Below are positions 10,510 through 29,675 of a stretch of 35,096 nt of DNA, piece by piece. The notes below the pieces were generated by a model. The model saw only the letters and a program-made list of their open reading frames with translations, was not told where the DNA came from and did not search any database. Positions within the stretch are counted from its first letter, which is position 1; each line of letters opens with the position of its first letter. A program made the translations under genes and the position numbers. The DNA comes from a virus, in IMG/VR virus record IMGVR_UViG_3300027742_000395, positions 1 through 35,096 of that record, one strand, 5' to 3'.

Positions 10510-10517
10510 TATAAATA
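10510..10517 (+). promoter_or_regulatory. T4-late-like promoter box upstream of lysis genes
   Basis: Exact TATAAATA preceded by G, 111 nt before the holin-like gene. Confidence 0.5.
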
Positions 10518-10628
10518 TAACTGAATAGAAACAACAACGAATTAAGTCACAGCACATAACACCAACAAAATAAAGGTTTTCACGTGTAACGACACATAAT
10601 AATAATAATAATAATAAGAAGAACAAAA

Positions 10629-11081
10629 ATGATTATCTTTGAATTTTTTGCTGTATTAGGTATTAGTAAGTCATACGCAATAGCAGCTTTCGTCGCATCA
10701 CTTGTGCGCATCTTGATCTTAGCCCGACAGCCCAGCCCGACAGTTTTCGAGATAGGACGACAATCGTTGTTAACGATGATTCTCGTGGGATCATCAGAAC
10801 CCATTGCATTATTGATAGGTATAGACCCGACATATGCGACGCTCGCGGGTGTAGCAGTAGCTCTCCACGGCACGAACGATGTGGTGGAATACATAAAATC
10901 TATAATCAAAGTTTTATTACCCGAAAAATTGAAAGACGCAGTTGAACGAGTTGAAGCGGAGAAAAAGCTAAAAGATGCAGAACATACAAATGCAGAACAA
11001 ATAAAGCGTATTGAAGATAAGAAACAAGATGAATTGAAAGAAGAGATAGAAACAACGGTTGACAACGAGATGAAAAATTAA
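10629..11081 (+). CDS. Holin-like membrane protein
   Basis: 150 aa. Three hydrophobic segments are visible: about 13-32 (SYAIAAFVASLVRILIL), 47-65 (LLTMILVGSSEPIALLIGI) and 68-92 (TYATLAGVAVALHGTNDVVEYI). A long, strongly charged C-terminal helix follows (about 97-150), a common holin tail. It is followed in TAATG overlap by a spanin-like gene, with the lysozyme downstream, so a holin role fits: it would form inner-membrane holes that release the signal-less endolysin. ATG start after an AAGAAG sequence. No sequence family is confidently identified beyond topology. Confidence 0.7.
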   Translation: MIIFEFFAVLGISKSYAIAAFVASLVRILILARQPSPTVFEIGRQSLLTMILVGSSEPIALLIGIDPTYATLAGVAVALHGTNDVVEYIKSIIKVLLPEKLKDAVERVEAEKKLKDAEHTNAEQIKRIEDKKQDELKEEIETTVDNEMKN

Positions 11082-11503
11082 TGATCAGTTTAATAATGAA
11101 AGGCTTTACAATTATCAAATCCGGTTTAAAATCATATAAAGTGCTAAGCGTAGTGTTAATACTTTCGATCGTTCTAGTACAAGAAATTCGCATTAACAAT
11201 TTTAGAAACGATATTCAGCAACAGAAACAAGAATTTTTGGAATATAAGAGTGAACAGCAGCAACGCATTATTGAACAGACGAACAAAGACTTTCAAGAAT
11301 TCATTGATTTAACGAATGAGCAACGCGAAACAAGTTCTAGCATTCGAGAAAGTATAAATATAATCAATGGAACAGCAGCAGCACGACGTAAAGAAATCAT
11401 GACGATGTTCGATGATGTATCAGAAGATGATGTTGATGCATTGGAGGAAATTGCTAATCGTGAGACACAACGAATGAAAGAGCTATTTTTGAAAACAGAA
11501 TAA
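11081..11503 (+). CDS. Spanin-like (Rz-type) inner membrane protein
   Basis: 140 aa. A single N-terminal membrane segment (about 20-37, YKVLSVVLILSIVLVQEI) is followed by a long coiled coil rich in E, Q and K (about 40-140), which is the i-spanin layout. It overlaps the holin-like stop codon by one base. I-spanins connect inner and outer membrane in the last step of lysis with an o-spanin lipoprotein, but no lipobox-bearing frame was found overlapping or following it. An internal ATG (codon 6) is also possible. Confidence 0.65.
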   Translation: MISLIMKGFTIIKSGLKSYKVLSVVLILSIVLVQEIRINNFRNDIQQQKQEFLEYKSEQQQRIIEQTNKDFQEFIDLTNEQRETSSSIRESINIINGTAAARRKEIMTMFDDVSEDDVDALEEIANRETQRMKELFLKTE

Positions 11504-11527
11504 AGAGTTATATAAAAGTTAGTCATG

Positions 11528-11589
11528 CGTGGGATTGGTTACCCCACGTTCTCCGAAAAGAAAAGCCCGCCTTGTGCGGGTATTCTTTT
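11528..11589 (+). terminator. Hairpins after the lysis pair; weak terminator
   Basis: CGTGGG/CCCACG (11528-11548) is followed by CCCGC-CTTGT-GCGGG (11566-11580) within AAAAG...CTTTT context. The second hairpin with TATTCTTTT resembles a rho-independent terminator with an imperfect T tract. Confidence 0.6.
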
Positions 11590-11754
11590 GATTATAATTT
11601 ATTAAATGACAATAGTTCTTATCTTTTGTATCTCTATAAAGCCCTCTGAGCGCTTTAAAAAGAAAAGGAATAGTAAGGGTAGGGTAAGCGCATAAACCGC
11701 TTATATCGAATATTTGAGGTGTTCTCATCGATTAACACCAGGTATCACAATAAA

Positions 11755-11762
11755 TATAAATA
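11755..11762 (+). promoter_or_regulatory. T4-late-like promoter box
   Basis: Exact TATAAATA, 35 nt before the start codon of the 63-aa gene. Confidence 0.5.
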
Positions 11763-11797
11763 TAACGAGCAATAAAATAACAAAAGGAAAACGAAAA

Positions 11798-11989
11798 ATG
11801 AATGACACGCAGATAGAACGATTGATAGAAGCGCTACTCGATCAGACCAGGGCAATAGATCGGTTAGTTTTTTTGATCGATTCTCAAAACGCAATGCTTA
11901 TGAATAAAGAGCAACATAAAGAAGAAGAAGATGATGAAATAGAAATTAAATTAATGAACGGTGAGGTAATAAAAACAAAAAAATACTGA
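11798..11989 (+). CDS. Small hypothetical protein
   Basis: 63 aa, starting at an ATG with AAAAGGAAAACG upstream. A helical N-terminal half (IERLIEALLDQTRAIDRLVFLID) is followed by an acidic run (EEEDDEIEIKL). It lies between the lysis pair and the lysozyme, and no family is recognised. A longer upstream extension of the frame has no ribosome binding site. Confidence 0.6.
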   Translation: MNDTQIERLIEALLDQTRAIDRLVFLIDSQNAMLMNKEQHKEEEDDEIEIKLMNGEVIKTKKY

Positions 11990-11998
11990 TTCAATTTC

Positions 11999-12006
11999 CC
12001 TAAATA
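11999..12006 (+). promoter_or_regulatory. Variant late-promoter box CCTAAATA
   Basis: Differs from TATAAATA at the first two bases but keeps TAAATAC, 28 nt before the lysozyme start, the same spacing as exact boxes. Confidence 0.3.
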
Positions 12007-12034
12007 CTTACATCTAAACAACAGGTGTAAGTAT

Positions 12035-12520
12035 ATGATGAATGAAATTAGTTTTACAAGAAAGCTAGATGAAGATGGAATATCACACATTAAACAATTC
12101 GAGGGCTTTAGAACTCACGCTTATAAAGACAGTGCAGGAATTTGGACAGTAGGTTATGGCTCAACACGAATTCACGGTAGAGCAGTACAAGCAAATGATG
12201 TAGTTACAGAACATCAAGCACTTAATCAAATGCATCTTGATCTTGAATCATTTGAACGAACTGTTAATGAATCAGTGAAAGTCTATCTAACACAATCACA
12301 GTACAACGCTTTAGTATCGTTCACATATAACGTGGGATCACACGCTTTCAAAACGTCAACGCTATTAAAGAAACTGAATCAATCTGATTATCACGGTTGC
12401 GCCCAGCAATTTATGATGTGGATATTTGCAGGTGGTAAACCAATCGAGGGGCTAGTAACTCGACGCAGATTAGAACAGAAACTGTTTGTAAAAGATTTAA
12501 GTAATAATGAGCATTACTAA
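12035..12520 (+). CDS. Endolysin, T4-type lysozyme (GH24)
   Basis: 161 aa, the typical length. The catalytic triad of T4 lysozyme is spaced exactly: E23 (KQFEGFR), D32 and T38 (AYKDSAGIWTVGYGST), matching E11-D20-T26. Further family features are the QYNALVSFTYNVG and the C-terminal GLVTRRRLEQKLF. It hydrolyses the glycan of peptidoglycan. There is no signal peptide or membrane anchor, so it needs the holin-like protein for release. Two adjacent ATGs (12035, 12038) are possible starts; AGGTG lies upstream. Confidence 0.95.
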   Translation: MMNEISFTRKLDEDGISHIKQFEGFRTHAYKDSAGIWTVGYGSTRIHGRAVQANDVVTEHQALNQMHLDLESFERTVNESVKVYLTQSQYNALVSFTYNVGSHAFKTSTLLKKLNQSDYHGCAQQFMMWIFAGGKPIEGLVTRRRLEQKLFVKDLSNNEHY

Positions 12521-12538
12521 TAGTGTTGATTGAAATTC

Positions 12539-12546
12539 ACTAAATA
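12539..12546 (+). promoter_or_regulatory. Variant late-promoter box ACTAAATA
   Basis: CACTAAATACC just before the first HNH gene. It keeps the TAAATAC core; another CACTAAATAC is at 23553. Confidence 0.3.
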
Positions 12547-12551
12547 CCATC

Positions 12552-12902
12552 ATGAAAACAAATAATAATAAATCAATGAGTAACAGCACGGCTAGAGAAA
12601 GATACGGTAAGTTATATAACTGCACCCGCTGGCGTAAGCTTAGACTACAACAATTGAATAAGGAACCGCTGTGTGCGTACTGTCTCAAGTTTGATAATCG
12701 TTACACTCAAGCAACTGTAGTTGATCACGTGACGAAACATGAAGGATCAGAGGAGCTATTTTATTCTGCATCGAATCTTCAAAGTTTATGTGAATTTCAT
12801 CATAACTCATACAAGCAACGCTTAGAGAAACGCAACGTCCAAGCAATAGGATGTGATGAGGATGGTAACCCATTAGATTCGAATCATTCATACTATCGAT
12901 AG
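12552..12902 (+). CDS. HNH endonuclease
   Basis: 116 aa. The treble-clef zinc-finger HNH core is visible: CAYC (about 41-44), VVDHVTKHEGS with the DH pair, SASNLQSLCEFHHNSYKQ with the C-terminal C/HH residues. Small HNH proteins next to terminases assist cohesive-end cleavage in HK97-like phages. The first ATG is only 5 nt after a late-promoter-like box; the internal ATG at codon 9 (12576) would give a 29-nt spacing like other units, so it may be the true start. Neither has a clear ribosome binding site. Confidence 0.85.
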   Translation: MKTNNNKSMSNSTARERYGKLYNCTRWRKLRLQQLNKEPLCAYCLKFDNRYTQATVVDHVTKHEGSEELFYSASNLQSLCEFHHNSYKQRLEKRNVQAIGCDEDGNPLDSNHSYYR

Positions 12903-12911
12903 ATTTAAAAG

Positions 12912-12919
12912 TATAAATA
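12912..12919 (+). promoter_or_regulatory. T4-late-like promoter box
   Basis: TTTAAAAG followed by exact TATAAATA, 28 nt before the 66-aa gene. Confidence 0.5.
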
Positions 12920-12947
12920 AGTTTGTATAGAAAAAGGACAGACACAA

Positions 12948-13148
12948 ATGGATTTGATAGCAATGCACATTGATAGTACAGCAACTATGAAATCATTCTG
13001 TAATGAGACGTTTGAAGATATAGATGTTGCAGCTATCAAGATTACTTACGTGTATGACGATCATTCTATATCAGAACAATTGATTGAATGTAGTGATGTT
13101 TTGTTTACGGAACAGTTCGCAAGTTTTGCTATAAAACAAACATTATGA
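12948..13148 (+). CDS. Small hypothetical protein
   Basis: 66 aa, acidic, with an ATG preceded by AAAAAGGACAG and a TATAAATA box. It lies between two HNH genes. No family recognised. Confidence 0.55.
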   Translation: MDLIAMHIDSTATMKSFCNETFEDIDVAAIKITYVYDDHSISEQLIECSDVLFTEQFASFAIKQTL

Positions 13149-13195
13149 TTATTAAGAGTATAAAACAATGTTGACTAAACAGCGTTCCATGTTCT

Positions 13196-13203
13196 CCTAA
13201 ATA
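13196..13203 (+). promoter_or_regulatory. Variant late-promoter box CCTAAATA
   Basis: TCTCCTAAATATTAG, 19 nt before the second HNH gene; a TATAAAAC lies slightly further up at about 13160. Confidence 0.25.
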
Positions 13204-13222
13204 TTAGCAATAGGAGAATGTA

Positions 13223-13774
13223 ATGATTAAGATAATAACTAGAAAGCAAGCGCGATTAAATAAATTAACTACGTACTATACGGGCAAGCCCTGTCGTAAA
13301 GGTCATTATGATGAACGCGACACTTTGACATCTAAATGTGTAGAATGTGTTAAACGACATAAAGCGTATAAAGATAAAAAGCGTAAGAATATTACCCCGA
13401 ATAATTATCTAGATATCCGTATCATACCGAATTTAATGTTAAGAGATAAAGGATATCCGTTAGAAATATTATACACAAAGAACGACTTATTAAATCATTT
13501 AGAAAAACATTTTCTCGATGATATGACTTTTGAAAACTATGGTAAGTTGTGGAGTATAGATCATTTTATACCCATAGATTATTTTTATGAAAATGAAATT
13601 GATGATATTAATATTATTAATTCTTTAGGGAATCTATTTCCGTTATATTGTAATGATAATACAGTCAAAAGAAATAATGATTGGGATACATTCAAAGAAC
13701 AATATCCTGAGCGCGCCGCAAAATATTGGTGGGCTGATGATATATCAGCTATTCATAAGAATGAATTGTTTTAA
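13223..13774 (+). CDS. HNH-family homing-type endonuclease
   Basis: 183 aa. The N-terminus has a zinc-finger-like segment common in phage HNH nucleases (YYTGKPCRKGHYDERDT followed by KCVECVKRHKAYK, about 18-47). The C-terminal half has the HNH signature: WSIDHFIPIDYF (the DH pair) and INSLGNLFPLYCNDNTVKRNN (N-LGNLFPL-N-K). ATG with TAGGAGAATG upstream. Free-standing nucleases of this kind spread between phages, or may assist packaging. It is AT-rich relative to the terminase genes and sits directly before the candidate cos region. Confidence 0.85.
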   Translation: MIKIITRKQARLNKLTTYYTGKPCRKGHYDERDTLTSKCVECVKRHKAYKDKKRKNITPNNYLDIRIIPNLMLRDKGYPLEILYTKNDLLNHLEKHFLDDMTFENYGKLWSIDHFIPIDYFYENEIDDINIINSLGNLFPLYCNDNTVKRNNDWDTFKEQYPERAAKYWWADDISAIHKNELF

Positions 13775-13810
13775 TAATAATATTAACTTATACGAGTAGC
13801 TATCTATAAA

Positions 13811-13864
13811 AAGGTGGGGGGTATCAGCAATCGCTAAACGAATCGCTAGCGAAAACCCCGATTC
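13811..13864. other. Candidate cos / terminase recognition region
   Basis: The gap between the HNH gene and small terminase holds GGTGGGGGGTATC, a direct repeat AATCGCTA (13829-13836 and 13841-13848), a 10-bp palindrome TCGCTAGCGA (13843-13852) and an ACCCC run complementary to the G run. In HK97- and lambda-like phages cos lies in this position. Assignment is by position. Confidence 0.4.
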
Positions 13865-13988
13865 CTCATTTATATAGATCAAAGCGAATTTTAAAACTAA
13901 TTTGTGCTACACAAAACGACAATAACGACACCATTATCAACAAGATAGCAACAAATAGAACATTATAAGAATAATAAAGGAATAAAGA

Positions 13989-14459
13989 ATGGCAGGACGT
14001 AGACCAAAGCCGACGGACGTTAAAAGAGGAAATGGTAACCCAGGCGGTAGACCCCTCAATGACTCAGAAATCGAATCCGCATCAATTTCAGAATTTGAAC
14101 CCCCAGCACATTTAAGCGCACGCGCTAAAGATGCATGGTTACGCATCGTTGAACACTATTCACATACAAAAGTTATTCAAATTACTGATGAAATTGCGCT
14201 TGAATCGCTGTGTGAAGTTTATGCTGACATTCGTGAATTACGTGAAGACATAGCAATAGAAGGGCGTACGTTTTCAAGCATTGATCGCCACGGCGCAACA
14301 CAAATGAAACGTAACCCAGCAGTTGCTGAGTTATCCGACGCTGATAAGAGGCTTAGATCATGGCTTATCGAATTCGGTTTAACACCCTCCAGTCGTTCAA
14401 AATTCTCTGAAAATGGTGGCAATAAAGATGACGATGATCCGTTAGACGAATTTTTATAA
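13989..14459 (+). CDS. terS: Terminase small subunit, P27 family
   Basis: 156 aa. It opens MAGRRPKPTDVKRGNGNPGGRP, the family N-terminus; then FEPPAHLSARAKDAWLRIVEHY and CEVYADIRELREDIAIEGRTF, and a conserved NPAVAELSDADKRLRSWLIEFGLTPSSRSK C-terminal segment. P27-type small terminases bind cos DNA and deliver it to the large subunit. ATG with AAAGGAA 7 nt upstream. An acidic tail (DDDDPLDEFL) ends it. It is 14 nt upstream of the large subunit. Confidence 0.95.
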   Translation: MAGRRPKPTDVKRGNGNPGGRPLNDSEIESASISEFEPPAHLSARAKDAWLRIVEHYSHTKVIQITDEIALESLCEVYADIRELREDIAIEGRTFSSIDRHGATQMKRNPAVAELSDADKRLRSWLIEFGLTPSSRSKFSENGGNKDDDDPLDEFL

Positions 14460-14473
14460 TTAGAAACAATTAA

Positions 14474-16210
14474 ATGAACACTCAAGTAAATAAAAATAAT
14501 AAGAAAATAAGAACACTCGAAAATCTTGGTTATGACATTACGCATAGAACACATTCTTATGCGTTAAAAGTGTGTGCTAAAAAAATTATCGCGGGGCCAG
14601 ATATCCGCAATGCATGTAAAAGACACTTAGACGACTTAGAAAAAGCGGGTGAGCGTGGTTATTATTTTTGTGAACAAACAGCAGATAAAGTTTTTAGATT
14701 TTTTGAGAACGTATTAAAGCTTAACGGTGGTGAATTTGAGAATAAACCATTTATATTGCTGGAATGGCAATGTTTCATAATTGGTAATTTATTCGGTTGG
14801 AAACAATCATCTAACGATAAGCGCAGATTTAAAAAAGCATATATTGAAACCGGAAAAGGCAGCGGTAAAAGCCCGTTATCCGCTGGTATCGGATTGTATG
14901 GATTAATTGCAGATAAAGAGGGTTCAGCAGAAATCTATGCAGCAGCATCAAAGAAAGATCAGGCGCAAATCTTATTCAGAGATGCAACTAAAATGGTGCA
15001 ACAGTCACCAGCATTAAATGCAAAAATCCATTCATCAGGTAAAAATCCCGTATGGAATATGTCATATAACGGCTGTTTCTTTAAGCCTATCGCATCAGAT
15101 TCCGGCCAGTCAGGGCCGCGCCCTCACATCGCTTTAATAGATGAATTACACGAACACAAAAATGCAGAAATAATTGAAATGATGGTAGCGGGCACTAAAG
15201 GGCGAGAACAGCCATTAATTTTTATGATCACTAACAGCGGTTCAGATCGCACAAGTGTTTGCTATGAATATCACGATTACTCGAAAAAAGTAGCAGCGCA
15301 GCAGACAGAAGCTGATACGTTTTTTTCATTTATTTGTTCTTTAGATAAAAATGATGACCCTTTTAAAGACGAATCCTGTTGGTACAAAGCAAACCCCAGC
15401 CTAGGCCACACCATTAAATTAGAATATCTACGTGAACAAGTAGAATCAGCTCGCGGTATGCCATCAAAAGAATCTCTTGTACGCCGCTTAAATTTTTGCC
15501 AGTGGGTTGATGCCATCGACCCATGGATTACGGGAGAGGTATTCGACAAAGTACTTGAAGACTTTGATTACTCTACCTTAGCGGGGCAGAAATGCTACGG
15601 CGGTTTAGACCTTTCAAAGTCTAATGACTTAACAGCATTAGCGCTTTATTTTCCAGATTTGCAAAAAATGATCATCGAATATTGGACACCAGCAGACACG
15701 CTACACGAGCGCGGCAGGCGGGATCACGTTCCATACGACGCATGGGTTAAAGCGGGGCATATGCACGCGCCCAGCGGCATCAACGTCGATTTTAGAGATG
15801 TTGCGTTAAGAATTTCAGAATTACAGCAAATGTTTGATTTAGAAACTATCGCGTTTGATCCATACAAAATCTCATACTTACAAAAAGAGATTGATGAACT
15901 TAATTTAAATATCAATTTAGAGTGTCATGCGCAGGGCTACAGCAAATCGAAAAATGGTTTATGGATGCCTCAGTCTATCAACTTAATTGAAAAAGATATT
16001 TTAGAACAAAACATTAAATTTAAAAAGAATCCAGTTACGCGCTGGAATGTTAGCGGCGCTGTCATTGAATCTGATCGTCAAGATAATCGCGTATTCGCTA
16101 AAAATAAAGCAACGCATCGCATAGATGGAATCGTTGCGGCAAGTATGGCGCGAGGTTGCGCAGAAATGCAGCACGTTTCTAAATCATCAGTTGATTATTT
16201 CTTTGTATAA
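14474..16210 (+). CDS. terL: Terminase large subunit (HK97-like, Terminase_1)
   Basis: 578 aa, normal length. The ATPase domain has Walker A ETGKGSGKS (125-133) and Walker B HIALIDELHEH (218-228, D223/E224). The C-terminal RNase H-like nuclease has GGLDLSKSNDLTAL (D379), IAFDPYKIS (D462) and a terminal HRIDGIVAASMA. It packages DNA through the portal and cuts it at cos. ATG with only a weak AGAAAC site, suggesting coupling with the preceding gene. No late-promoter box is present between the subunits. Confidence 0.97.
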   Translation: MNTQVNKNNKKIRTLENLGYDITHRTHSYALKVCAKKIIAGPDIRNACKRHLDDLEKAGERGYYFCEQTADKVFRFFENVLKLNGGEFENKPFILLEWQCFIIGNLFGWKQSSNDKRRFKKAYIETGKGSGKSPLSAGIGLYGLIADKEGSAEIYAAASKKDQAQILFRDATKMVQQSPALNAKIHSSGKNPVWNMSYNGCFFKPIASDSGQSGPRPHIALIDELHEHKNAEIIEMMVAGTKGREQPLIFMITNSGSDRTSVCYEYHDYSKKVAAQQTEADTFFSFICSLDKNDDPFKDESCWYKANPSLGHTIKLEYLREQVESARGMPSKESLVRRLNFCQWVDAIDPWITGEVFDKVLEDFDYSTLAGQKCYGGLDLSKSNDLTALALYFPDLQKMIIEYWTPADTLHERGRRDHVPYDAWVKAGHMHAPSGINVDFRDVALRISELQQMFDLETIAFDPYKISYLQKEIDELNLNINLECHAQGYSKSKNGLWMPQSINLIEKDILEQNIKFKKNPVTRWNVSGAVIESDRQDNRVFAKNKATHRIDGIVAASMARGCAEMQHVSKSSVDYFFV

Positions 16211-16214
16211 AAAG

Positions 16215-16222
16215 CATAAATA
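16215..16222 (+). promoter_or_regulatory. Variant late-promoter box CATAAATA
   Basis: One-base variant 30 bp upstream of the exact box at 16252, before the capsid unit. Confidence 0.25.
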
Positions 16223-16251
16223 ACATTGTCTGAAATAATTAATTTAAAAAG

Positions 16252-16259
16252 TATAAATA
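16252..16259 (+). promoter_or_regulatory. T4-late-like promoter box for capsid
   Basis: TTTAAAAAG followed by exact TATAAATA, 60 nt before the capsid gene start. Confidence 0.5.
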
Positions 16260-16319
16260 AGTGTAATAAAGATTAAAGAAAACAGAAATTAAGAATAAAA
16301 ACAAAAGAACAATAATAAT

Positions 16320-18296
16320 ATGAAGAATAAAGCTTATTCAATTTTAACTGTTAATAAACAGTACACAGACGAAGAAACAAATGAACGTGTAATCACTGGC
16401 ACCGCTACAACACCCGCTGCTGATCGCGTTAATGATGTTATTAATCCGCTAGGAATTACTTTTCAAAATCCATTACCGCTACTTTTTCATCATGATCATG
16501 AAAAGCCCGTTGGCACTGTTTTTTTTGAAAATCCGACAGAAGAGGGCATTAAGTTTGTCGCTCGAATCGCTGATATTCAAGAACCAGGGCTTTTAAAAGA
16601 TCGTTGCGATGAGGCATGGCAAAGCGTTAAAGCACAGCTAGTGCGCGGTGTAAGCATTGGTTTTCGACCCACGGGTGATGTTGAATATATTAAAAACGGT
16701 GGGATTCTCTATAAAACATGTGAAGTGTTCGAACTTTCACTAGTAACAATTCCGTGCAACGCACAAGCGACAATTGAACTAATCAAATCTTTAGATACTA
16801 GCGCGTCAGCTATAGATAAAGATGATGTAGAAAAGCAAGAAAGCAATTTACAAATAAAATCAAAAGAATCAGAAACAGCGCGTCAGCTTGATTCAGAAAA
16901 CACTAAATGTGTTGATTCCGAAAACACTAAATATATTAAAGTCAGTTACAAAAATGACTCCAAAATTATAAAAAATAATAATAAAGGTATGACAACTATG
17001 AAATTCGCAGAACAAATTAAAAACGTTAAAAGTGCACGCGCTGATAAAGTTAAAGCTATGCAAGACATTATGAGTGAGCAAGTAACTCTAGACGATGAAC
17101 AAAATGCACAGTATGAAACCTTAGAATCTGAAGTTAAATCTTTAGACGCTCAACTAAAGCGTTTAGAAGATTTAGAAAAAATGAGTGCTAGCGAAGCTAC
17201 TGATGTTGAAGTTAGCAAAGCTTACAAGCCACAAGTTTTGATTAAAACTCAAAAAGATGCCGCCCCAGGTGTTGCATTCGCACGCATCGCAGGCGCTCTA
17301 GCACAAGCTAAAGGCAATGTTACTGCTGCTGCTGAAATCACTAAGCGTTTCAGTGATACCCCAGCCGTACATGAATTCCTAAAAAATAAATCAATCGGTA
17401 TGACTGATGATGAGGCATGGGCAAGTCCACTTGTACAAGAGTCTAATATCGTTGATGAATTCGTTGAATTACTACGTCCAGCATCAGTAATGGGCAAAAT
17501 TCAAGGTTTCCGCACTGTACCCTTTAATACAAAAATCGTAGTTCAAACCAACGGTACATCAGCAAATTGGGTGGGTGAGTCTCAAGAAATCGGCAAAACG
17601 GGTATGGGTTTCTCGACTGTTTCTTTGAATCACTCTAAAGTAGCTGCAATCGTTCCGATCTCAGCAGAGCTAGCACGTTTCTCTAACCCATCAGCAGAAC
17701 TCGCTGTTCGTGATGATCTTATCAAAGCTATCACACAAAAAGTTGATAATACTTTATTCGATTTTGATGCTGTTGAATCTAGCGATAATCCAGGGTCTTT
17801 AACTGCTAATGCATCTATGATCGTAGACAGCGGTGAAACTGCTGAAAATGTTGAAGCTGATCTTGAATCACTATTTGCAAAATATCTTGAAGATAATGCG
17901 TCATTTGAGGGCTGCTATATTGCTATGTCAACTCAGCGTGCAATGCGAATCGGTAACATGAAAAACGCGGTAGGTGCTTACATTTTTCCAGGTATGCAGG
18001 GCATTATGAACAACGAACGTTCGCTGATGGGTCTACCCGTTGTTACAAGTGAAGTTACATCATTACAAGATAAAATCGTACTTATGAAACCATCCGAAAT
18101 TCTTGTTGCTGATGACAGTATTGTTGATCTAGATGTTGATCTAAGCGGTGTTTATACCGACGAAAACGGCGTAGCTGTAAGCGCATGGGAACGTGATTTG
18201 GTGCTAATTCGTGCTAAGCGTGCAATTCGCTGGAAAGCTGCACGTCCCAAAGCTGTCGCGTTTATCACTTATGATCCCAATATCGTAGCATCATAA
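16320..18296 (+). CDS. Fused HK97 prohead protease - major capsid protein
   Basis: 658 aa in one frame. Residues about 20-155 are an HK97/U35-type prohead protease: GTATTPAADRVNDVINPLG, FHHDH with the catalytic histidine (H57 or H58), RGVSIGF (S112) and the closing FELSLVTIPCNAQA. After a charged, repetitive linker (155-220, twice DSENTK), residues about 227-300 form the helical scaffold domain and 300-658 the HK97-fold capsid (AWASPLVQES, FNTKIVVQTNGTSANWVGE). In HK97 the two are separate genes. An internal start near 16989-17000 may give capsid alone. The protease would cut itself and the scaffold out of the prohead. Confidence 0.93.
   Translation: MKNKAYSILTVNKQYTDEETNERVITGTATTPAADRVNDVINPLGITFQNPLPLLFHHDHEKPVGTVFFENPTEEGIKFVARIADIQEPGLLKDRCDEAWQSVKAQLVRGVSIGFRPTGDVEYIKNGGILYKTCEVFELSLVTIPCNAQATIELIKSLDTSASAIDKDDVEKQESNLQIKSKESETARQLDSENTKCVDSENTKYIKVSYKNDSKIIKNNNKGMTTMKFAEQIKNVKSARADKVKAMQDIMSEQVTLDDEQNAQYETLESEVKSLDAQLKRLEDLEKMSASEATDVEVSKAYKPQVLIKTQKDAAPGVAFARIAGALAQAKGNVTAAAEITKRFSDTPAVHEFLKNKSIGMTDDEAWASPLVQESNIVDEFVELLRPASVMGKIQGFRTVPFNTKIVVQTNGTSANWVGESQEIGKTGMGFSTVSLNHSKVAAIVPISAELARFSNPSAELAVRDDLIKAITQKVDNTLFDFDAVESSDNPGSLTANASMIVDSGETAENVEADLESLFAKYLEDNASFEGCYIAMSTQRAMRIGNMKNAVGAYIFPGMQGIMNNERSLMGLPVVTSEVTSLQDKIVLMKPSEILVADDSIVDLDVDLSGVYTDENGVAVSAWERDLVLIRAKRAIRWKAARPKAVAFITYDPNIVAS
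16983..17000 (+). promoter_or_regulatory. Internal ribosome binding site for unfused capsid
   Basis: AAAGG at 16983-16987 sits 10 nt before an in-frame ATG at 16998 (and next to one at 16989), at the start of the scaffold domain. Translation from there would give a capsid protein of about 432 aa. Confidence 0.45.
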
Positions 18297-18389
18297 TTTC
18301 GCAAGAATCAAATGTTTAGTTGTTAATGTGTTAAGTAGAAATAAAAAGTTAGTTTAAAATAATAACAATAAAAAAGCTGTAACTTTTAG

Positions 18390-18416
18390 CCCAGACCTCA
18401 CAAGTCTGGGTTTTTT
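18390..18416 (+). terminator. Rho-independent terminator after capsid
   Basis: CCCAGAC-ctcacaa-GTCTGGG followed by TTTTTT. Confidence 0.92.
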
Positions 18417-18448: not shown

Positions 18449-18456
18449 TATAAATA
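18449..18456 (+). promoter_or_regulatory. T4-late-like promoter box for portal unit
   Basis: TTTAAAAC followed by exact TATAAATAC, 34 nt before the 64-aa gene and just after the capsid terminator. Confidence 0.5.
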
Positions 18457-22118: not shown

Positions 22119-22126
22119 TATAAATA
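22119..22126 (+). promoter_or_regulatory. T4-late-like promoter box, first of two
   Basis: Exact TATAAATA directly after the tail terminator stop; a second exact copy is 21 bp further on. Confidence 0.5.
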
Positions 22127-22139: not shown

Positions 22140-22147
22140 TATAAATA
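22140..22147 (+). promoter_or_regulatory. T4-late-like promoter box for tail tube
   Basis: TTTTAAAAG followed by exact TATAAATAC, 97 nt before the tail tube start. Tandem with the box at 22119. Confidence 0.5.
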
Positions 22148-22727: not shown

Positions 22728-22750
22728 AAAGCCCCGCTAGGGGCTTTTTT
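22728..22750 (+). terminator. Rho-independent terminator after tail tube
   Basis: AAAGCCCC-GCTA-GGGGCTTT followed by further T. Confidence 0.9.
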
Positions 22751-22792: not shown

Positions 22793-22800
22793 TATAAATA
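22793..22800 (+). promoter_or_regulatory. T4-late-like promoter box for tail chaperone
   Basis: CAAAG followed by exact TATAAATAC, 45 nt before the chaperone start. Confidence 0.5.
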
Positions 22801-22845
22801 CTTTTGTTATTAATTGAACTAATAAAAACAAAGGTAATTACTACT

Positions 22846-23235: not shown

Positions 23236-23549
23236 CAGACGAACAAATATGGCATGAATTAGTCTTGTCAGGCGTCGGTGGTAACACTATCGCAGAGGCA
23301 AAAGAAAACATGACAATGAATGAATTCAACGAGTGGTGTGTTTATCGAAATCAAACGGGGCCGCTCGATTCATCATCAAAGATTTGTGAATATATCAAAC
23401 AGCTAACATTTATCACTATTAAAATTGCTGGTGATAAAAAAATGACAATTGAAGATTTGGAATTGTATAGAGCTATTGAGAAACATGATCCCGACAAAGT
23501 AGCAACTACTAGTGATATTCTAAATCTTTTCAATAGTATCAATTCATAA
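23232..23549 (+). CDS. Tail assembly chaperone, T-like extension (-1 frame)
   Basis: Translated only after the -1 slip, adding about 105 residues. The extension begins VTDEQIWHELVLSGVGGNTIAEAKENMTMNEFNEWCVYR, the helical pattern of gpT parts that bind the tape measure. It has no ribosome binding site of its own: the earliest candidate in-frame start is a TTG at 23265. The full fusion spans 22846-23549 with about 234 aa. Confidence 0.85.
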   Translation, partial: VTDEQIWHELVLSGVGGNTIAEAKENMTMNEFNEWCVYRNQTGPLDSSSKICEYIKQLTFITIKIAGDKKMTIEDLELYRAIEKHDPDKVATTSDILNLFNSINS

Positions 23550-23552
23550 TTC

Positions 23553-23560
23553 ACTAAATA
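23553..23560 (+). promoter_or_regulatory. Variant late-promoter box ACTAAATA
   Basis: CACTAAATAC, the same as at 12539, just after the T part; there is no gene before the terminator at 23649. Confidence 0.25.
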
Positions 23561-23648
23561 CAATCACACTGCAAGATAACGCGCAATGCGTAATATTATT
23601 AATTGCGAAAATTATTAATTACGAATATTAAACATAAATGTCCTTTTT

Positions 23649-23675
23649 GAAACCCGCTCATGCGGGTTTCTTTTT
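23649..23675 (+). terminator. Rho-independent terminator
   Basis: GAAACCCGC-TCAT-GCGGGTTTC followed by TTTTT. Confidence 0.92.
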
Positions 23676-23707
23676 GTCTTTATTTTAATGTTCAACGTCA
23701 AGCTTTC

Positions 23708-23715
23708 TATAAATA
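23708..23715 (+). promoter_or_regulatory. T4-late-like promoter box for tape measure
   Basis: CTTTC followed by exact TATAAATAC, 43 nt before the tape measure gene. Confidence 0.5.
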
Positions 23716-23758
23716 CATAAGAATTTAAAACAATAATAATAAATATGGAATTCAAAAT

Positions 23759-26700
23759 ATGTCGATGAAGAGCTTAGGTTCTTTAACAGTTGATTTAGTT
23801 GCTAATGATAGCCAGTGGACAGCGGGTATGTCTCGTGCTGAACGCTCAACTAAACGATTCGAAGAACAAACAAAAAGACAAAACAAAGAACTAGAACGTG
23901 TTGTTTCTAAGATTGATCCTGTTGTCGGGAAACTTAGAGAACTTGATCGTCAACAGCAAGTTTTAAACAGATCACAGAAGAATGGACTGATCGATCAAAC
24001 ACAATTCGATTCGTTAACAAAAAAACTTGAGGCACAGCGTCGCAGCGTCAGGGGCTTAGATAATGACTTTGAACGCGCGGGCAAGTCTGCTGCAACGCTG
24101 AATAACTCATTATCAACTGTACGCGTCTTAGCGGGTGCTGCATTCGCTGCTGTTGGTGGCATGGGCTTGAGTCGTGTCATCAGTGAAACAGCGACTTTCG
24201 GCGAGTCGATGAACACGCTACGCGCTATTACAGGGGCCACTGGTGAGCAGTATGAAAAATTGGAGGAACAAGCTAGAACGCTAGGTGCTACTACTCGCTA
24301 CAGTGCGCAACAGTCAGCAGATGCGCAATCGTATCTTGCGCGTGCAGGTTTCGATGTAAATCAAACGTTAGCAGCGACACCGCAAATTTTAGCACTAGCC
24401 ACGGCGGGGCAACTCGATCTAGCGCGTGCAGCAGACATATCAAGCAACGTACTCGGTCAGTTCAATCTGCAAGTCGGAGACTTATCACGTGTCAATGACG
24501 TACTAGCGAAAGCTGCTAACAGTTCTAACACGACTGTTGAACAGCTTGCGACAGCACTTAAAAAAGCGGGGCCAATCGCGAATTCTGCAAATATTTCACT
24601 TGAGCAAACATCAGCACTAATATCAGCATTATCGGATAACGGCTTGCAAGGAGAAATTGCGGGAACTGGTGTACTTGGTTTCATACGTCAGCTATCAAAC
24701 GTTACCCCCGCAGCAGCGGATGCACTCGCGAAATACGGTTTAACTGTTAAAGATGTATCACTAGAAACAAATTCTTTAAGTACTGTTCTACATCGTCTTA
24801 AAGCTGCGAATTTCACAACATCAGATTCTTTTAAAATATTCGCAAGCGAAGCGGGGCCAGCAGCAGAAGTATTAGCTGAATCAGCAGATAAGATTGATGA
24901 ATTAACACTTGCTTATGAAAATTCAGCGGGTACTGCTGATGAAATGGCTAGAATTATCGGGCAGGGTTTATCTAATTCGATCAAGACATTTAATTCAGTA
25001 TTATCAGAATCAGTGTTGCAAATGGGCCAGGGCGGCTTAGGTAAAAGTTTCGAATTCGTAATACAGCAAGCGTCAGGCGTGATTTCAGTATGGAATGGCA
25101 TGGGTGATGTTTATGCTGAAACTAATGAACTCACTGATGAGCAAGCGAAACGCAACGAAATATTAGCGCAAACAATTCAGACAACAGCAGCAGCGGTATC
25201 AGCTTACAGCGCTGTTTTATTGGGTTATACAGCAGCATCAAAAACAGCAGCTATTGCAACAGCGATATTCACGAAAGCAGCTAAAGCTAACCCAATCATC
25301 GCAGCAGTATCTGGGGCAGCAGCAGCAATCGCTATTATCTATAGTTTTAAAGATCAAATAATTAGCGTAGGGGATACAACACTTGAGGTTTCAGAATATG
25401 TATCAGAAATCTGGCGGGTGTTCGTTAACAGAATTAGTGGTTACTGGGATAAATTCGATGATGTTGTTAGTGATGTACTGAGTAAATTTGATATCAATGT
25501 TTCAAGTGTTGTTGATCAAGCATCAAAATATTGGGAATCATATGTTTCATATATTGTTAACATTACAAGCACAGCTATCAATTCAGTTATAGGTTTATTC
25601 GTTGCTGTTGCTGATTCAGTCTTTGTCACTGTTAATACAATTTATGATAATTACGTGTATATGTTTGATCGCGTCCTAGCGACTGCTGGTGGTTTTGCTA
25701 AAGACTTCAAAAATATTCTCGACGGTAATTTATCATTTGGTAATTTAAAAGCAGAAATTGAGGAGGGCTTTAGCGGTACTACTAACGTCTTTTCAGCAAT
25801 TGCTGAGAGCGCACAGAATGCATTAAGCACTGATTATGTAAAGAACTCATTAGATGCAATTTCATCAGTGATCGATGAGGCAGAAAGAAATATTCGTGAT
25901 CGTGATATGTATCGTCCCTTAACTGATCATTTATTTGATTTGAATACAGCAGCATCAACGACAATTCAAAGTCAAAATGATTTAGCTCAAACATTTGATC
26001 AAACTGAACAATCAACAGCCGCAAACGCTAAAGCACTGCGTGATTCACAACGAGCAGCAGAACAATATAATAATTCAATTCAAACATTAGTTGATCGTCT
26101 AGACCCGCTCGGTAAGAAATTTAGAGATTTGAAATCAGATGAAATGTTATTGCAAACAGCGTTAATGCAAAACAAAGTATCTATTACTGATTATTTTAAA
26201 TTACTTGAAAAGATGAAACTTGAACAAGCTGAGGCTGTTAAAGGGACTGATGCACCAGAATTATCAGTATCATCAGAATTCGGCGGTGTGAGTAGTGATG
26301 TATCTAACATTATTAATTATGAAGAGCAGTTGAACAAATGGCGTGATGATGAACTGAATTCTTTATCAGAAATGAATGATGCTAAGTTATTAAACGATGT
26401 TGATTATTTAGAACGTAAAGCAAAGCTTGAGCAAACGTATGCAGCTAAAACAAATGAAATAGCAGTTGCATCAAAGAATGCTCAATTGTCAGTGCTCGGA
26501 AATCTTGCAGACAGCACAGCAGGCATTCTATCAACTATCGGTCAAGAATCATCAGCAGCATATAAAGCGATGTTCTTAGTGAGCAAAGCGGCAGCGATGG
26601 CGCAAGCACTCGTGAACACTGAACAAGCAGCAACGCTTGCACTAGCGCAGGGCGGGGGCATAGCGGGAATCCCGATGGCTACAATAGTACGCGCTAGCGG

Positions 26701-27037
26701 GTATGCATCAGTCGCTGCAATAGGGGCAACAACGCTGATGGGTATGGCGCACGATGGTATCGACTCAGTGCCGAACGATGGCACGTGGTTACTACAAAAA
26801 GGTGAGCGTGTCACGACTGCTAATACATCAGCAAAGCTAGATAAAACGTTAACTGATATTCAAGAGAACAATACAAACAATAACAATTCAAAAATAGTAT
26901 TTGCACCACAAATATCAGTCGGTCAAGGTTCTAACATTACAAGTAGTGAAATTGAAATGTTAATGAAAAAAGAACATGCACGCTTTAGAAATATGTTAGT
27001 GAAAGAGAAACAGCCAGGGGGTTTATTATATACGTAA
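23759..27037 (+). CDS. Tail tape measure protein
   Basis: 1092 aa; its length sets tail length. An N-terminal helical coil (SMKSLGSLTVDLVANDSQWTAGMSRAERSTKRFEEQ) is followed by the TP901-type core (about 120-420: GESMNTLRAITGATGEQYEKLEEQARTLGATTRYSAQQSADAQSYLARAGFDVNQ), hydrophobic helices near 475-530 (AVSAYSAVLLGYTAAS, NPIIAAVSGAAAAIAIIY), coiled coil to about 900 and a C-terminal glycine/alanine membrane-like segment (about 930-1000). ATG with TGGAATTC upstream. No lytic transglycosylase motif was seen. It is followed by its own terminator. Confidence 0.93.
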   Translation: MSMKSLGSLTVDLVANDSQWTAGMSRAERSTKRFEEQTKRQNKELERVVSKIDPVVGKLRELDRQQQVLNRSQKNGLIDQTQFDSLTKKLEAQRRSVRGLDNDFERAGKSAATLNNSLSTVRVLAGAAFAAVGGMGLSRVISETATFGESMNTLRAITGATGEQYEKLEEQARTLGATTRYSAQQSADAQSYLARAGFDVNQTLAATPQILALATAGQLDLARAADISSNVLGQFNLQVGDLSRVNDVLAKAANSSNTTVEQLATALKKAGPIANSANISLEQTSALISALSDNGLQGEIAGTGVLGFIRQLSNVTPAAADALAKYGLTVKDVSLETNSLSTVLHRLKAANFTTSDSFKIFASEAGPAAEVLAESADKIDELTLAYENSAGTADEMARIIGQGLSNSIKTFNSVLSESVLQMGQGGLGKSFEFVIQQASGVISVWNGMGDVYAETNELTDEQAKRNEILAQTIQTTAAAVSAYSAVLLGYTAASKTAAIATAIFTKAAKANPIIAAVSGAAAAIAIIYSFKDQIISVGDTTLEVSEYVSEIWRVFVNRISGYWDKFDDVVSDVLSKFDINVSSVVDQASKYWESYVSYIVNITSTAINSVIGLFVAVADSVFVTVNTIYDNYVYMFDRVLATAGGFAKDFKNILDGNLSFGNLKAEIEEGFSGTTNVFSAIAESAQNALSTDYVKNSLDAISSVIDEAERNIRDRDMYRPLTDHLFDLNTAASTTIQSQNDLAQTFDQTEQSTAANAKALRDSQRAAEQYNNSIQTLVDRLDPLGKKFRDLKSDEMLLQTALMQNKVSITDYFKLLEKMKLEQAEAVKGTDAPELSVSSEFGGVSSDVSNIINYEEQLNKWRDDELNSLSEMNDAKLLNDVDYLERKAKLEQTYAAKTNEIAVASKNAQLSVLGNLADSTAGILSTIGQESSAAYKAMFLVSKAAAMAQALVNTEQAATLALAQGGGIAGIPMATIVRASGYASVAAIGATTLMGMAHDGIDSVPNDGTWLLQKGERVTTANTSAKLDKTLTDIQENNTNNNNSKIVFAPQISVGQGSNITSSEIEMLMKKEHARFRNMLVKEKQPGGLLYT

Positions 27038-27061
27038 TTTAGAATAAGTATTAGACAAATT

Positions 27062-27085
27062 GAAAAGCCCCGTGAGGGGCTTTTC
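27062..27085. terminator. Rho-independent terminator after tape measure
   Basis: GAAAAGCCCC-GTGA-GGGGCTTTTC. Confidence 0.9.
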
Positions 27086-27108
27086 TTATTACTGCATGAT
27101 GTAATTTA

Positions 27109-27116
27109 TATAAATA
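27109..27116 (+). promoter_or_regulatory. T4-late-like promoter box for tail-tip genes
   Basis: Exact TATAAATAC 35 nt before the gpM-like start and 24 nt after the tape measure terminator. Confidence 0.5.
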
Positions 27117-27151
27117 CATTTAATAAAAAATAATAAGAAGGGAACTATTAA

Positions 27152-27499
27152 ATGTATGAAACATTTCCAATTCTTGAACGTGCAGATGTTGATGTTGGCG
27201 CACAAGAACAATATGAGTTTGCAGTAAATGTTATTAATTTCGGTGACGGTTACGAACAACGCAGCGCAAAAGGCATTAACAGCGTTAAGCAAACGCTTGA
27301 TGTTACGTTTACATCATTAAGCGATAGTGATGCTGTCATAATTACTGATTTCATTAAAGAACATGGCGGGGCTAAGCCTTTTTACTTTACGTTTTATATT
27401 AATGACTCAAAGCTTTATACGTGTAATTCATTATCTAAAACAGTTGTAGAAAAAGGGCAAACCACGATTTCTTTACAATTCGTGGAGGCTTTTGTATGA
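27152..27499 (+). CDS. Minor tail protein, lambda gpM-like
   Basis: 115 aa. INFGDGYEQRSAKGINSVKQTLDVTFTSLSDSDAVIITDFIKEHGGAKPFYFT is the typical gpM pattern. It links the tail tube to the tip complex. ATG with GAAGGGA upstream; overlaps gpL by ATGA. Confidence 0.9.
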   Translation: MYETFPILERADVDVGAQEQYEFAVNVINFGDGYEQRSAKGINSVKQTLDVTFTSLSDSDAVIITDFIKEHGGAKPFYFTFYINDSKLYTCNSLSKTVVEKGQTTISLQFVEAFV

Positions 27500-28197
27500 G
27501 TGAATTAATAGCGACTGAATCACAACAGCTTTATCATGACACGATCATTACTTTATATGAAATTGATGCATCAAAATATGGTGGTGGTATCTTACGATTT
27601 CAATCATCAAGTCATAATACTTTGACATTTAACGGCTATGACTATACGCCATTTCCTATAAAAGCATCGGGGTTCGAATATAACGGCAGGGGTCAAGCAC
27701 CGGAACCAAACCTTACAGTGTCTGTTGTCGATCTTGCATTTACAGCACAGCTATTATCTGCAAACAATTTAGTAAATTGTGATGTGAGACGTATCAAAAC
27801 ATTTCGAAAATACTTAGACGATGGCTCAGACCCGCAACCTAACGCAACGTTAGTTATAGATGAATTCTATATTTCACGTATGTCTGAGAAAACATCAACA
27901 CATGTAACGTTTGTTTTAGCTAGCAAATTGGATGTGCGTGGAAAGCAAATACCCGCTCGACAAATCATTAAATCTACATGTATGCATTCTTATAGGGTGT
28001 GGGATGCTGAAAGAAATAGATTTAATTATGAAAATGCTACTTGTCCTTACGCTCAAGCCAGCTATTACGATAGAAAAAACTTTCCAACTAGTGACCCAGC
28101 CGAGGACGTTTGTTCGCGTGATTTAGCGGGATGTAAAGCAAGATACGGACAATATGCGTTACCGTTCGCGGGTTTTCCAGGGGCGAGGCGTTATTAA
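27496..28197 (+). CDS. Minor tail protein, lambda gpL-like
   Basis: 233 aa. ATESQQLYHDTIITLYEIDASKYGGGILRF opens like gpL. The C-terminal domain has four cysteines, C162, C183, C206 and C213, in the spacing region where lambda gpL binds a [4Fe-4S] cluster, so a cluster is plausible. It acts in the tail-tip complex with J, I and K. TAATG overlap with the next gene. Confidence 0.92.
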   Translation: MSELIATESQQLYHDTIITLYEIDASKYGGGILRFQSSSHNTLTFNGYDYTPFPIKASGFEYNGRGQAPEPNLTVSVVDLAFTAQLLSANNLVNCDVRRIKTFRKYLDDGSDPQPNATLVIDEFYISRMSEKTSTHVTFVLASKLDVRGKQIPARQIIKSTCMHSYRVWDAERNRFNYENATCPYAQASYYDRKNFPTSDPAEDVCSRDLAGCKARYGQYALPFAGFPGARRY

Positions 28198-28940
28198 TGA
28201 CTATATCAAAAAATGATTTGCTTACAAATGAGCAAGTACAACACGTTAAAGATCAAGCAATTGAGCAGTATCCAAACGAAATAATATTTTTATTAACTGC
28301 ACAGAACGGCTTATATCAAGTTGATAATATTGCTGATGACATAACAAAAGAATTTCTAGTTAGTAGTGCTGATATGCAACAAGCACTTTCTGAAAATTTA
28401 ATTGCTGTTATACATAGTCATCCCGATTTTGAACCTTGTCCAAGCGCTGCTGATATGCGGTCACAGATCGCGACAGATGTTAATTATGGAATTGTGGCAA
28501 CGGATGGCGTCAATGCGACAGATGTATATTTCTGGGGTAAAGATATTGAAAAAAATCCACTAGTGGGCAGGGGCTTTATACACGGCATTCAAGACTGTTA
28601 TTCATTGATCAAAGATTACTACGCACAAGAATTAAATATTGAACTAGATGAATATCCGCGCGATTGGGAATGGTGGAATAAAGGCGATGATTTGTATTCT
28701 TTCAATGTTGATAAACAAGGTTTTATTCGTGTCGATGAGCCTCAAAAAGGCGATATGATTTTTATGCAAATACGTTCAAAAGTTCCAAATCATGGGGCTG
28801 TTTACATCGGTAATGATTTAATCATGCATCACATAACAAGTTCTAAAGCAGTTGATGAAACTAGACTTTCAACTGAAGAACCGATATTGCGTTATAGAAA
28901 TTACATTACACATTATTATCGTCACGAATCGATGTTTTAA
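28197..28940 (+). CDS. Tail assembly protein K-like: JAMM + NlpC/P60 domains
   Basis: 247 aa. An N-terminal JAMM/Mov34 metalloprotease-like domain (about 10-115) has the metal-binding VIHSHPDFEPCPSAADM (H73, H75, S83, D86). The C-terminal NlpC/P60 peptidase has C134 (GIQDCYSLIKDYY), H199 (NHGAVYIGN) and H211/H212. Lambda K uses these to process the cell wall on entry and act in tip assembly. All key residues are present. The start overlaps gpL by one base. Confidence 0.93.
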   Translation: MTISKNDLLTNEQVQHVKDQAIEQYPNEIIFLLTAQNGLYQVDNIADDITKEFLVSSADMQQALSENLIAVIHSHPDFEPCPSAADMRSQIATDVNYGIVATDGVNATDVYFWGKDIEKNPLVGRGFIHGIQDCYSLIKDYYAQELNIELDEYPRDWEWWNKGDDLYSFNVDKQGFIRVDEPQKGDMIFMQIRSKVPNHGAVYIGNDLIMHHITSSKAVDETRLSTEEPILRYRNYITHYYRHESMF

Positions 28941-28969
28941 ATTTTAAGATAAACATTATATCAAAGACA

Positions 28970-28995
28970 GAAAAACCCGCTGAGGCGGGTTTTTC
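28970..28995. terminator. Rho-independent terminator after K
   Basis: GAAAAACCCGC-TGAG-GCGGGTTTTTC, the same hairpin as at 3332 and 4833. Confidence 0.9.
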
Positions 28996-29035
28996 ATTGT
29001 GTGTGTTTGCATTTGTACATTAGCTTTCTAACTTA

Positions 29036-29043
29036 CATAAATA
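29036..29043 (+). promoter_or_regulatory. Variant late-promoter box CATAAATA
   Basis: One-base variant 34 nt before the I-like gene, just after the terminator. Confidence 0.35.
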
Positions 29044-29077
29044 TAATAAAGAAGAAGAACAAGTAAAAGGAACAATA

Positions 29078-29659
29078 ATGATTAACGTTAAATTATACGG
29101 ATCACTTAAAAAATTCGGTGAAAGTTATGAACTAAATGCAAGTGATGCAAAAGAATGTATACGTGCTTTAGCAGTACAGCTAGATAATTTTAAAGATGAA
29201 TTACTGAAATGTGATGTCCGTCTTGTGTGGGGTGATTTAAACCAAAATCGTGAACTAGATGCTCAGACATTATCACTCAATATTCCAAACAAAGAACTAC
29301 ATATCATTCCTAGCGCCAGTGGGGCAGGTGGTGGCAGCGGTAAAATTATCTCAGGTGTTGCATTAATTGGCGCAAGTTTCTTCGTTCCCGGTGCTGGCCT
29401 GATGGGTATATCCGCTTTAAGCGCTACAACAGTCGGTGTACTTGGCACAACTTTAGCGCTTACAGGTGTAGCACAATCATTAGCGCCAAACGTTCCAGCA
29501 GATTATGAATCACAGCAAAGACCCGAAGAAAGAGCAAGTTACATATTCGATGGGCCAGTTAATCGCGCAGGCGAGGGGATAGCTGTTCCGATAATTATCG
29601 GTGAGGTGTTAACAGGTTCAATTGTTGTATCCAGTGGTTTAGATGCTGAACAGCTTTGA
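29078..29659 (+). CDS. Tail assembly protein I-like
   Basis: 193 aa. KLYGSLKKFGESYELNASDAKECIRALAVQL is the gpI N-terminus (ubiquitin-like fold), followed by a glycine-rich linker (GAGGGSG), a hydrophobic stretch (IISGVALIGASFFVPGAGLMGISALSA) and a C-terminal RAGEGIAVPIIIGEVLTGSIVVSSG. It is needed for tail-tip assembly. ATG with AAAAGGAAC 5 nt upstream. Confidence 0.92.
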   Translation: MINVKLYGSLKKFGESYELNASDAKECIRALAVQLDNFKDELLKCDVRLVWGDLNQNRELDAQTLSLNIPNKELHIIPSASGAGGGSGKIISGVALIGASFFVPGAGLMGISALSATTVGVLGTTLALTGVAQSLAPNVPADYESQQRPEERASYIFDGPVNRAGEGIAVPIIIGEVLTGSIVVSSGLDAEQL

Positions 29660-29667
29660 TGTTAAAT

Positions 29668-29675
29668 GTTAAATA
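29668..29675 (+). promoter_or_regulatory. Variant late-promoter box GTTAAATA
   Basis: TGTTAAATACTTTC, 69 nt before the J-like gene; weaker than the others. Confidence 0.2.

Follow-up and report, generated by a model that had tools for sequence, protein, structure and literature searches.

Putative promoter boxes resembling T4 late promoters in a lambda/HK97-type temperate siphovirus

Late promoters of phage T4 are built on an 8-bp TATAAATA core without conservation at -35, and nine of 50 sites carry A at -13 (PMC2988020). The phage sigma gp36 of phiEco32 uses single-element middle and late promoters (tAATGTAtA) with starts 6-8 bp downstream (PMC8948821), and a T4-late-like motif, TggTAaAAtA, has been reported upstream of late genes in coliphage rV5, a phage with no gp45, gp33 or gp55 homologues (PMC3606486). 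Here we analyse the IMG/VR virus contig IMGVR_UViG_3300027742_000395 (hereafter the window, meaning the whole stretch of 35,096 bases, with 36% guanine-cytosine (GC) content, an integrase gene at its start and its end just beyond gpJ), which carries about twenty short boxes that, as sequences, resemble T4 late promoters.

The boxes share with the T4 late promoters (gp55/gp33/gp45) the core, the missing -35 element, the predicted core-to-start spacing and the arrangement of many separate putative virion-gene promoters, but they differ in that no gp55, gp33 or gp45 homologue was detected, the core is NATAAATA, A was not seen at its first position in 24 boxes, non-late genes also appear to be served, and the phage is a temperate siphovirus of 35-37 kb. 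A single conserved element without -35, placed ahead of non-late as well as late genes, also recalls phiEco32, in which, however, the element is different and the sigma gene is recognisable, whereas none was found here. The rV5 motif has eight copies and a weaker match, belongs to a lytic myovirus and is presented, in the passage concerned, with neither comparative nor start-site support; within the open-licence literature accessible to us, the present case is of the same kind, with stronger comparative evidence and in a temperate siphovirus. The order of virion and lysis genes is that of a lambda/HK97 siphovirus, but the late region contains many putative promoters and terminators, unlike the one long transcript of Q-dependent lambda, and neither Q nor N was recognised by homology. 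We consider it very probable that the boxes form a real promoter class, and our preferred interpretation (probability about 0.55) is that they are single-element promoters to which something other than unaided sigma70, probably a factor encoded by the phage, directs the host RNA polymerase.

Placement and conservation of the boxes

The window holds 13 exact copies of the core, of which 11 are on the plus strand and two on the minus strand (981 and 4505), compared with a mean of 5.6 and a maximum of 12 in shuffles of the whole window. A sequence-only reading of this DNA had proposed a T4-like late regulon from 11 plus-strand copies, ten of them in gaps between genes; all 11, between 10,510 and 27,116, are where it placed them, and the exception to the gaps, at 11353, lies within an open reading frame. 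Gaps between 9,704 and 29,745 (2,882 nucleotides (nt)) hold ten copies on the plus strand and none on the minus strand, the expectation being 1.1-1.9 under Markov models of order 1 to order 3 and 2.5 under order 4. The minus-strand copy at 4505 stands 27 nt ahead of a 129-amino-acid (aa) gene, on the same strand as that gene. Variants of the form CATAAATA or TAAATAC, said to precede the lysozyme, HNH, I and J genes, are likewise present. Two details survived in part: the flank TTTAAAAG, attributed to several boxes, occurs at 12912 and 22140 (16252 has one extra A) but not in the relative described below, and box-to-start distances are mostly 30-60 nt but reach about 105-125 nt at 10510, 22119 and 22140.

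Terminase scans returned one near-complete relative, G001 (37,417 nt; pieces L092, L083 and L093), and, from one other sample, the short contigs L001 and L137, both with 86-90% identity to it. Gene order in G001 is collinear with that of the window, and protein identity is about 75%, being mostly 55-80% in the late genes. A count of the motif in related phages, proposed earlier as a check, found boxes at orthologous transcription-unit starts in G001, L001 and L137, and what is conserved is ATAAATA, or TAAATA in the variants, the leading T not being conserved. Among genes with an orthologue in G001, by our own tally, 13 of the 15 with a box in the window also have one in G001 (ATAAATA or TAAATA type), and 13 of the 15 box-less window genes lack one there (Fisher p=1.5e-4 for agreement in box state). 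The G001 boxes are CATAAATA (holin), GATAAATAC (62-aa gene) and GGATAAATAT (lysozyme) on the lysis side; two copies of GCATAAATA (capsid) and GATAAATAA plus TCATAAATAA (64-aa gene) on the head side; AGATAAATAG (major tail protein), AGATAAATAC (127-aa gene) and TATAAATAC (tape measure) on the tail side; and CATAAATAA (M) and GATAAATAA (I), the gpJ box having been lost. L137 and L001 agree with these as far as each contig reaches.

Taking the window and G001 together, 40 of 45 noncoding TAAATA copies lie sense-upstream of a gene, whichever strand the gene occupies, minus-strand copies upstream of minus-strand genes being counted too. Gap TAAATA in the two phages is sense in 32 cases and antisense in 4 (ratio 8), compared with 43 sense and 47 antisense (ratio 0.9) in Proteus/Providencia prophages of the same terminase family and 37-43% GC, and with 12 sense and 7 antisense in Halomonadaceae chromosome pieces; in the gaps of window and G001, TATAAT occurs 11 times sense and 6 times antisense (ratio 1.8), as against a ratio of 10.5 for ATAAATA. 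When viral contigs were scanned with the extended box as a DNA pattern, covering 80 loci, only one locus, with a GC content of 25%, was enriched by our criterion (at least 5 sense copies and a ratio of at least 3); another locus that was inspected looks unrelated. That the boxes are a chance or compositional product of A-rich leaders is hardly credible: AATAATAA leaders do outnumber the box in the gaps, but Markov models up to order 4 do not reach the observed count, and conservation at orthologous places would be left unexplained.

The wording 'late regulon' is too narrow as a description of these putative promoters. The same box is conserved upstream of the RuvC-MvaT and DEAD-helicase genes in both the window and G001, at odds with a strictly late set, and other non-late genes with a box are the 129-aa gene, nuclease genes (among them an endonuclease-VII-like gene, whose homologue in G001 lies at another location, on the opposite strand, with its own box) and possibly the DnaB-like gene. 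The restriction to late genes that characterizes the T4 system is thus not found here.

Box anatomy and the start signature

Alignment of 24 boxes on the invariant ATAAATA (leaving out gap copies 11750 and 23739, which are preceded by A and are overlapping or leader repeats) revealed no -35-like signal in any column from -45 to -10. The earlier statements that the motif equals the T4 late core and has no -35 element therefore stand, with no informative column for a shared -35. In these 24 boxes ATAAATA follows T, C or G and never A, though A is the commonest background base. In the column corresponding to T4 +1, 22 of 24 boxes have a purine, and a pyrimidine-purine step at T4 -1/+1 is found in 26 of 40 upstream-sense TAAATA copies and 10 of 46 others (65% vs 22%, p=7e-5). 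This offset was the strongest of 13 tested (next-best p=0.02; every TAAATA in both phages), and 12 of 16 boxes outside the initial 24 carry the step. A sequence signature thus lies six bases below the core, where transcription starts with T4 spacing would be expected; by this signature the predicted start of the HNH gene (12552) would fall on the A of its ATG, making it leaderless.

The main rival, which we disfavour, is that the host sigma70 holoenzyme reads the boxes as a NATAAA -10 element, aided by AT-rich flanks or by an activator of the phage in place of the -35 contact. Starts 6-8 nt below a -10 element are compatible with sigma70, no phage sigma was found in the window or G001, and boxes precede genes that may be required early (helicase, RuvC/MvaT), before a phage factor would exist. 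However, 24 of 24 boxes have A in place of T-7 and keep TA beyond the hexamer, and ATAAATA read as a -10 hexamer lacks A-11 or T-7 in every register; neither a -35 element nor an extended -10 with A-11 and T-7 was found, nor any activator motif in the aligned boxes. The small strand bias of TATAAT in the same gaps and the absence of such boxes from sigma70-using relatives of similar GC also speak against it. A consensus promoter scanner found fewer sigma70-like sites in the window than in shuffles, and there was no Rfam family match. Because of the invariant A at T-7 and the missing -35 column, we regard host sigma70 as the less likely reader.

Box 24-46 nt after terminator is a recurrent arrangement, found at each of the five intrinsic terminators given in Table 1; after a sixth (11565-11581), the next box is at 11755. 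Because an intrinsic terminator closes several of the units shortly before the next box, expression appears to proceed from many parallel promoters, not from one antiterminated late transcript. In a silencing interpretation, the boxes would be nucleation sites of an H-NS/MvaT-type silencer, of host or phage, that keeps late genes off in the lysogen. The phage does encode an MvaT-type protein, MvaT favours DNA containing multiple TpA steps (PMC4466236), and box and promoter could coincide; but silencer sites are orientation-free whereas the boxes are strand-specific (the 40/45 count above), and the boxes stand at transcription-unit starts with a start-site signature at a fixed offset. We consider this very improbable.

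Table 1 Boxes and associated features of the window (gene starts in parentheses).
Feature	Position	Strand	Comparison or basis
TTAAATAGC, RuvC-MvaT-like operon (2353)	2322..2327	+	identical in G001 and G285 remnant prophage
RuvC-like resolvase gene	2353..2853	+	74% identical in G001
MvaT-type H-NS family gene	2917..3297	+	74% identical in G001
TATAAATA box, 129-aa gene (4089-4478 -)	4505..4512	-	sequence
84-aa gene	4529..4783	-	70% identical in G001; moron-like, host-type promoter
Possible AATT-TAAATAT, DnaB-like gene	7318..7323	-	weak: lacks pyrimidine-purine start
CTGC-TAAATAT, DEAD-helicase-like gene	9707..9712	-	G001 counterpart preceded by AGATAAATAC
TATAAATA box, holin gene (10629)	10510..10517	+	orthologous CATAAATA at L083 7234
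TATAAATA box, 62-aa gene (11801)	11755..11762	+	GATAAATAC at same place in L083, L001
Variant CCC-TAAATAC, lysozyme (12035)	12001..12006	+	GATAAATAT in L083, CATAAATAT in L001; GGATAAATAT given for G001
Variant CAC-TAAATAC, HNH gene (12552)	12541..12546	+	sequence
TATAAATA box, 66-aa gene (12948)	12912..12919	+	sequence
Variant CTCC-TAAATAT, endonuclease-VII-like gene (13223)	13198..13203	+	sequence
CATAAATA, first box of protease-capsid gene (16320)	16215..16222	+	two boxes at same place in L083, L001
TATAAATA, second box of protease-capsid gene (16320)	16252..16259	+	sequence
Intrinsic terminator closing capsid unit	18388..18412	+	terminator search
TATAAATA box, 64-aa gene and portal, after terminator 18388-18412	18449..18456	+	L083 13829, 13846; L137 1973, 1990
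TATAAATA, first box of major tail protein (22245)	22119..22126	+	L083 17461; L137 5599
TATAAATA, second box of major tail protein (22245)	22140..22147	+	sequence
TATAAATA box, 127-aa gene (22852), after terminator 22728-22747	22793..22800	+	L083 20439; L137 6220
TATAAATA box, tape measure gene (23759), after terminator 23649-23670	23708..23715	+	L083 21275
TATAAATA box, minor tail gene (27152), after terminator 27062-27085	27109..27116	+	L093 3122
CATAAATA box, gpI-like gene (29078), after terminator 28970-28995	29036..29043	+	L093 4978
Variant TGT-TAAATAC, gpJ (29745)	29670..29675	+	no box at this place in G001

Candidate readers

The sequence-only reading recognised no sigma gene, and profile, PHROG and PDB searches bear it out. 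Sigma70_r2 had no match in six frames of the window or G001 at E<=10, the N-terminal domain of the T4 clamp (gp45, PF02916) had none in six frames of either, and no phiEco32-type phage sigma (a sigma-70-family protein) was found in the two. Proteins of unknown function gave no gp55/gp33-like match in Pfam, PHROGs or PDB sequences, and no PHROG or Pfam match naming gp33 occurred among the scanned proteins, although remote homologues could escape. With no homologue of gp55, gp33 or gp45 found in either the window or G001, membership of the T4 system is not borne out. A true T4-type late system, in which a gp55 homologue diverged past recognition would work with the host sliding clamp, is improbable: core, spacing and missing -35 all match T4, and T4-family cores vary at -13/-12 (PMC2988020), but neither phage has a sigma-70 region 2, T4 clamp family or PDB match, the gp55-sized, all-helical paralogs A-C are without a G001 counterpart and too poorly modelled to help, and T4 allows A at -13, yet none of the 24 boxes has it there.

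Box and geometry are the same in the two phages, so that a reader encoded by the phage should be common to both. The 121-, 129- and 132-aa proteins and paralogs A-C, which had been named as candidates, have no detectable counterpart in G001, which uses the same boxes, nor any PDB match of note, and are rejected. Paralogs A-C (1351-1863, 3371-4048 and 4887-5426) are diverged (24-35% identity) and predicted to be helical at low confidence, with a conserved C-terminal motif, IRDDI-x-DDP-x-F-x-LNK-x-KLL; the paralog AlphaFold model was uninformative (predicted local distance difference test (pLDDT) 43).

The 84-aa protein, another named candidate, is unlikely to be the reader and was likewise set aside, being present also in P2-like Halomonas prophages that lack such boxes and have almost no ATAAATA. 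It was found in 13 of 275 Halomonadaceae genomes, its gene adjoins tRNA ends in several of them, and its family has been seen so far just in genomes of Halomonadaceae and in prophages of various types; decayed second copies occur in G001 and in G285, a genome from the Halomonadaceae search. In the window and G001 a terminator is followed by a host-type TGCTATnnT promoter for the gene, which has the look of a moron transcribed on its own. For the AlphaFold model of the protein (pLDDT 76; three strands and a helix), neither PDB nor BFVD offered a good match.

Outside the virion genes, the window and G001 share integrase, AlpA-like, RuvC-like, MvaT-like and 84-aa proteins and, weakly, RHH and DEAD proteins; these, plus small late proteins, would be the remaining candidates. 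We caution that several observations weigh against our interpretation. The shared non-virion proteins include no obvious sigma and no reader was found among them; should transcription after infection begin with the helicase and RuvC/MvaT genes, a host-resident reader would be simpler; in the box/no-box tally gap length is a confounder, since nearly no gap precedes many of the box-less genes; the pyrimidine-purine test pools 40 and 46 sites from both phages with gene starts that we assigned; and the comparison covers just two independent lineages.

The interpretation that we nevertheless prefer, a factor other than unaided sigma70, would operate as follows. Promoters would consist of the consensus NATAAATA (N = T, C or G), four free bases and a pyrimidine-purine start, with no -35 element, and the TAAATA core with other preceding bases would serve some genes. 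Such boxes would head most transcription units (lysis, capsid, tail, tape measure, RuvC/MvaT-like operon, helicase and nuclease genes), and host core RNA polymerase would be directed to them by the factor, probably phage-encoded and not recognisable by sequence. More specifically, and tentatively, a small shared protein unlike known sigmas, or a borrowed host factor, may redirect host RNA polymerase convergently with gp55.

Host, neighbouring features and implications

PHROG matches place the window among lambda/HK97-type temperate siphoviruses: terminase, protease-capsid fusion, portal and connectors; major tail protein, tape measure and the lambda M-L-K-I-J tail genes; and integrase, RuvC-like resolvase, DnaB-like helicase, AlpA-like excisionase and endolysin. 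No match came from a near-identity search for the window in phages or from single-protein scans of viral contigs with the capsid and with the helicase, and TerL relatives in Halomonadaceae genomes are distant, GC-rich and without boxes. G001 runs from integrase to a host glutathione-peroxidase (gpx) gene, which its right end enters and which has 69-72% identity to Salinicola, MFB021 and Halomonas genes; since G001 is complete between int and this host gene, few phage genes can hide outside the contig. The host of G001 is, on strong evidence, a member of the Halomonadaceae, because of this flank and because G285 contains a remnant prophage (int, AlpA, RuvC, MvaT and 84-aa genes) whose right end carries the same kind of gpx gene; the host of the window is likely to be the same, judging from genes shared with G001.

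In the G285 remnant (L124 14860 to L126 about 2000), int-AlpA-RuvC-MvaT is kept in a Halomonadaceae chromosome and the 84-aa gene is broken; about 17 kb of higher-GC interior DNA carries other genes, the late genes of the window having no detectable match there, and no attachment-site repeat of at least 11 nt was found between its two ends. A 724-aa cargo gene lies between tail transcription units of G001 (L083 18168-20342) and not in L137, with an upstream region unlike the box class. The MvaT-type H-NS gene sits in a 36% GC phage, and the host flank (in G001) has 52-58% GC. Because no CI-like repressor was recognised in the window or G001, silencing by the H-NS family protein may have a role in lysogeny.

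A second early promoter or operator class was observed on the minus strand at 1915-1960, 5456-5495 and 7639-7680, upstream of paralog A, paralog C and the RHH gene; its pattern is roughly TTATAAAA-N12-13-CTAACTAC, CTAACTAC being confined to these three places in the window, and the class was not found in G001. The palindrome TAACTACGTAGTTA lies ahead of paralog C, and five minus-strand genes have the ribosome site ACGGAGAA in common. Between the helicase gene and the late genes, a divergent region of 0.9 kb contains four to five tandem 16-nt repeats, TTGATAATGTTTTAAA (9826-9890), possibly an operator or origin iterons, and, in the same noncoding region, a 90-nt stretch duplicated with 98% identity 99 nt apart (10264-10452).

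If our interpretation is correct, T4-late-like promoters would not be confined to the T4 lineage but would occur, with another reader, in a small temperate phage, and the near-complete gene list would leave a handful of candidate readers for a -35-less TATAAATA promoter. Q-type late control could then no longer be taken for granted from a lambda-type gene order.

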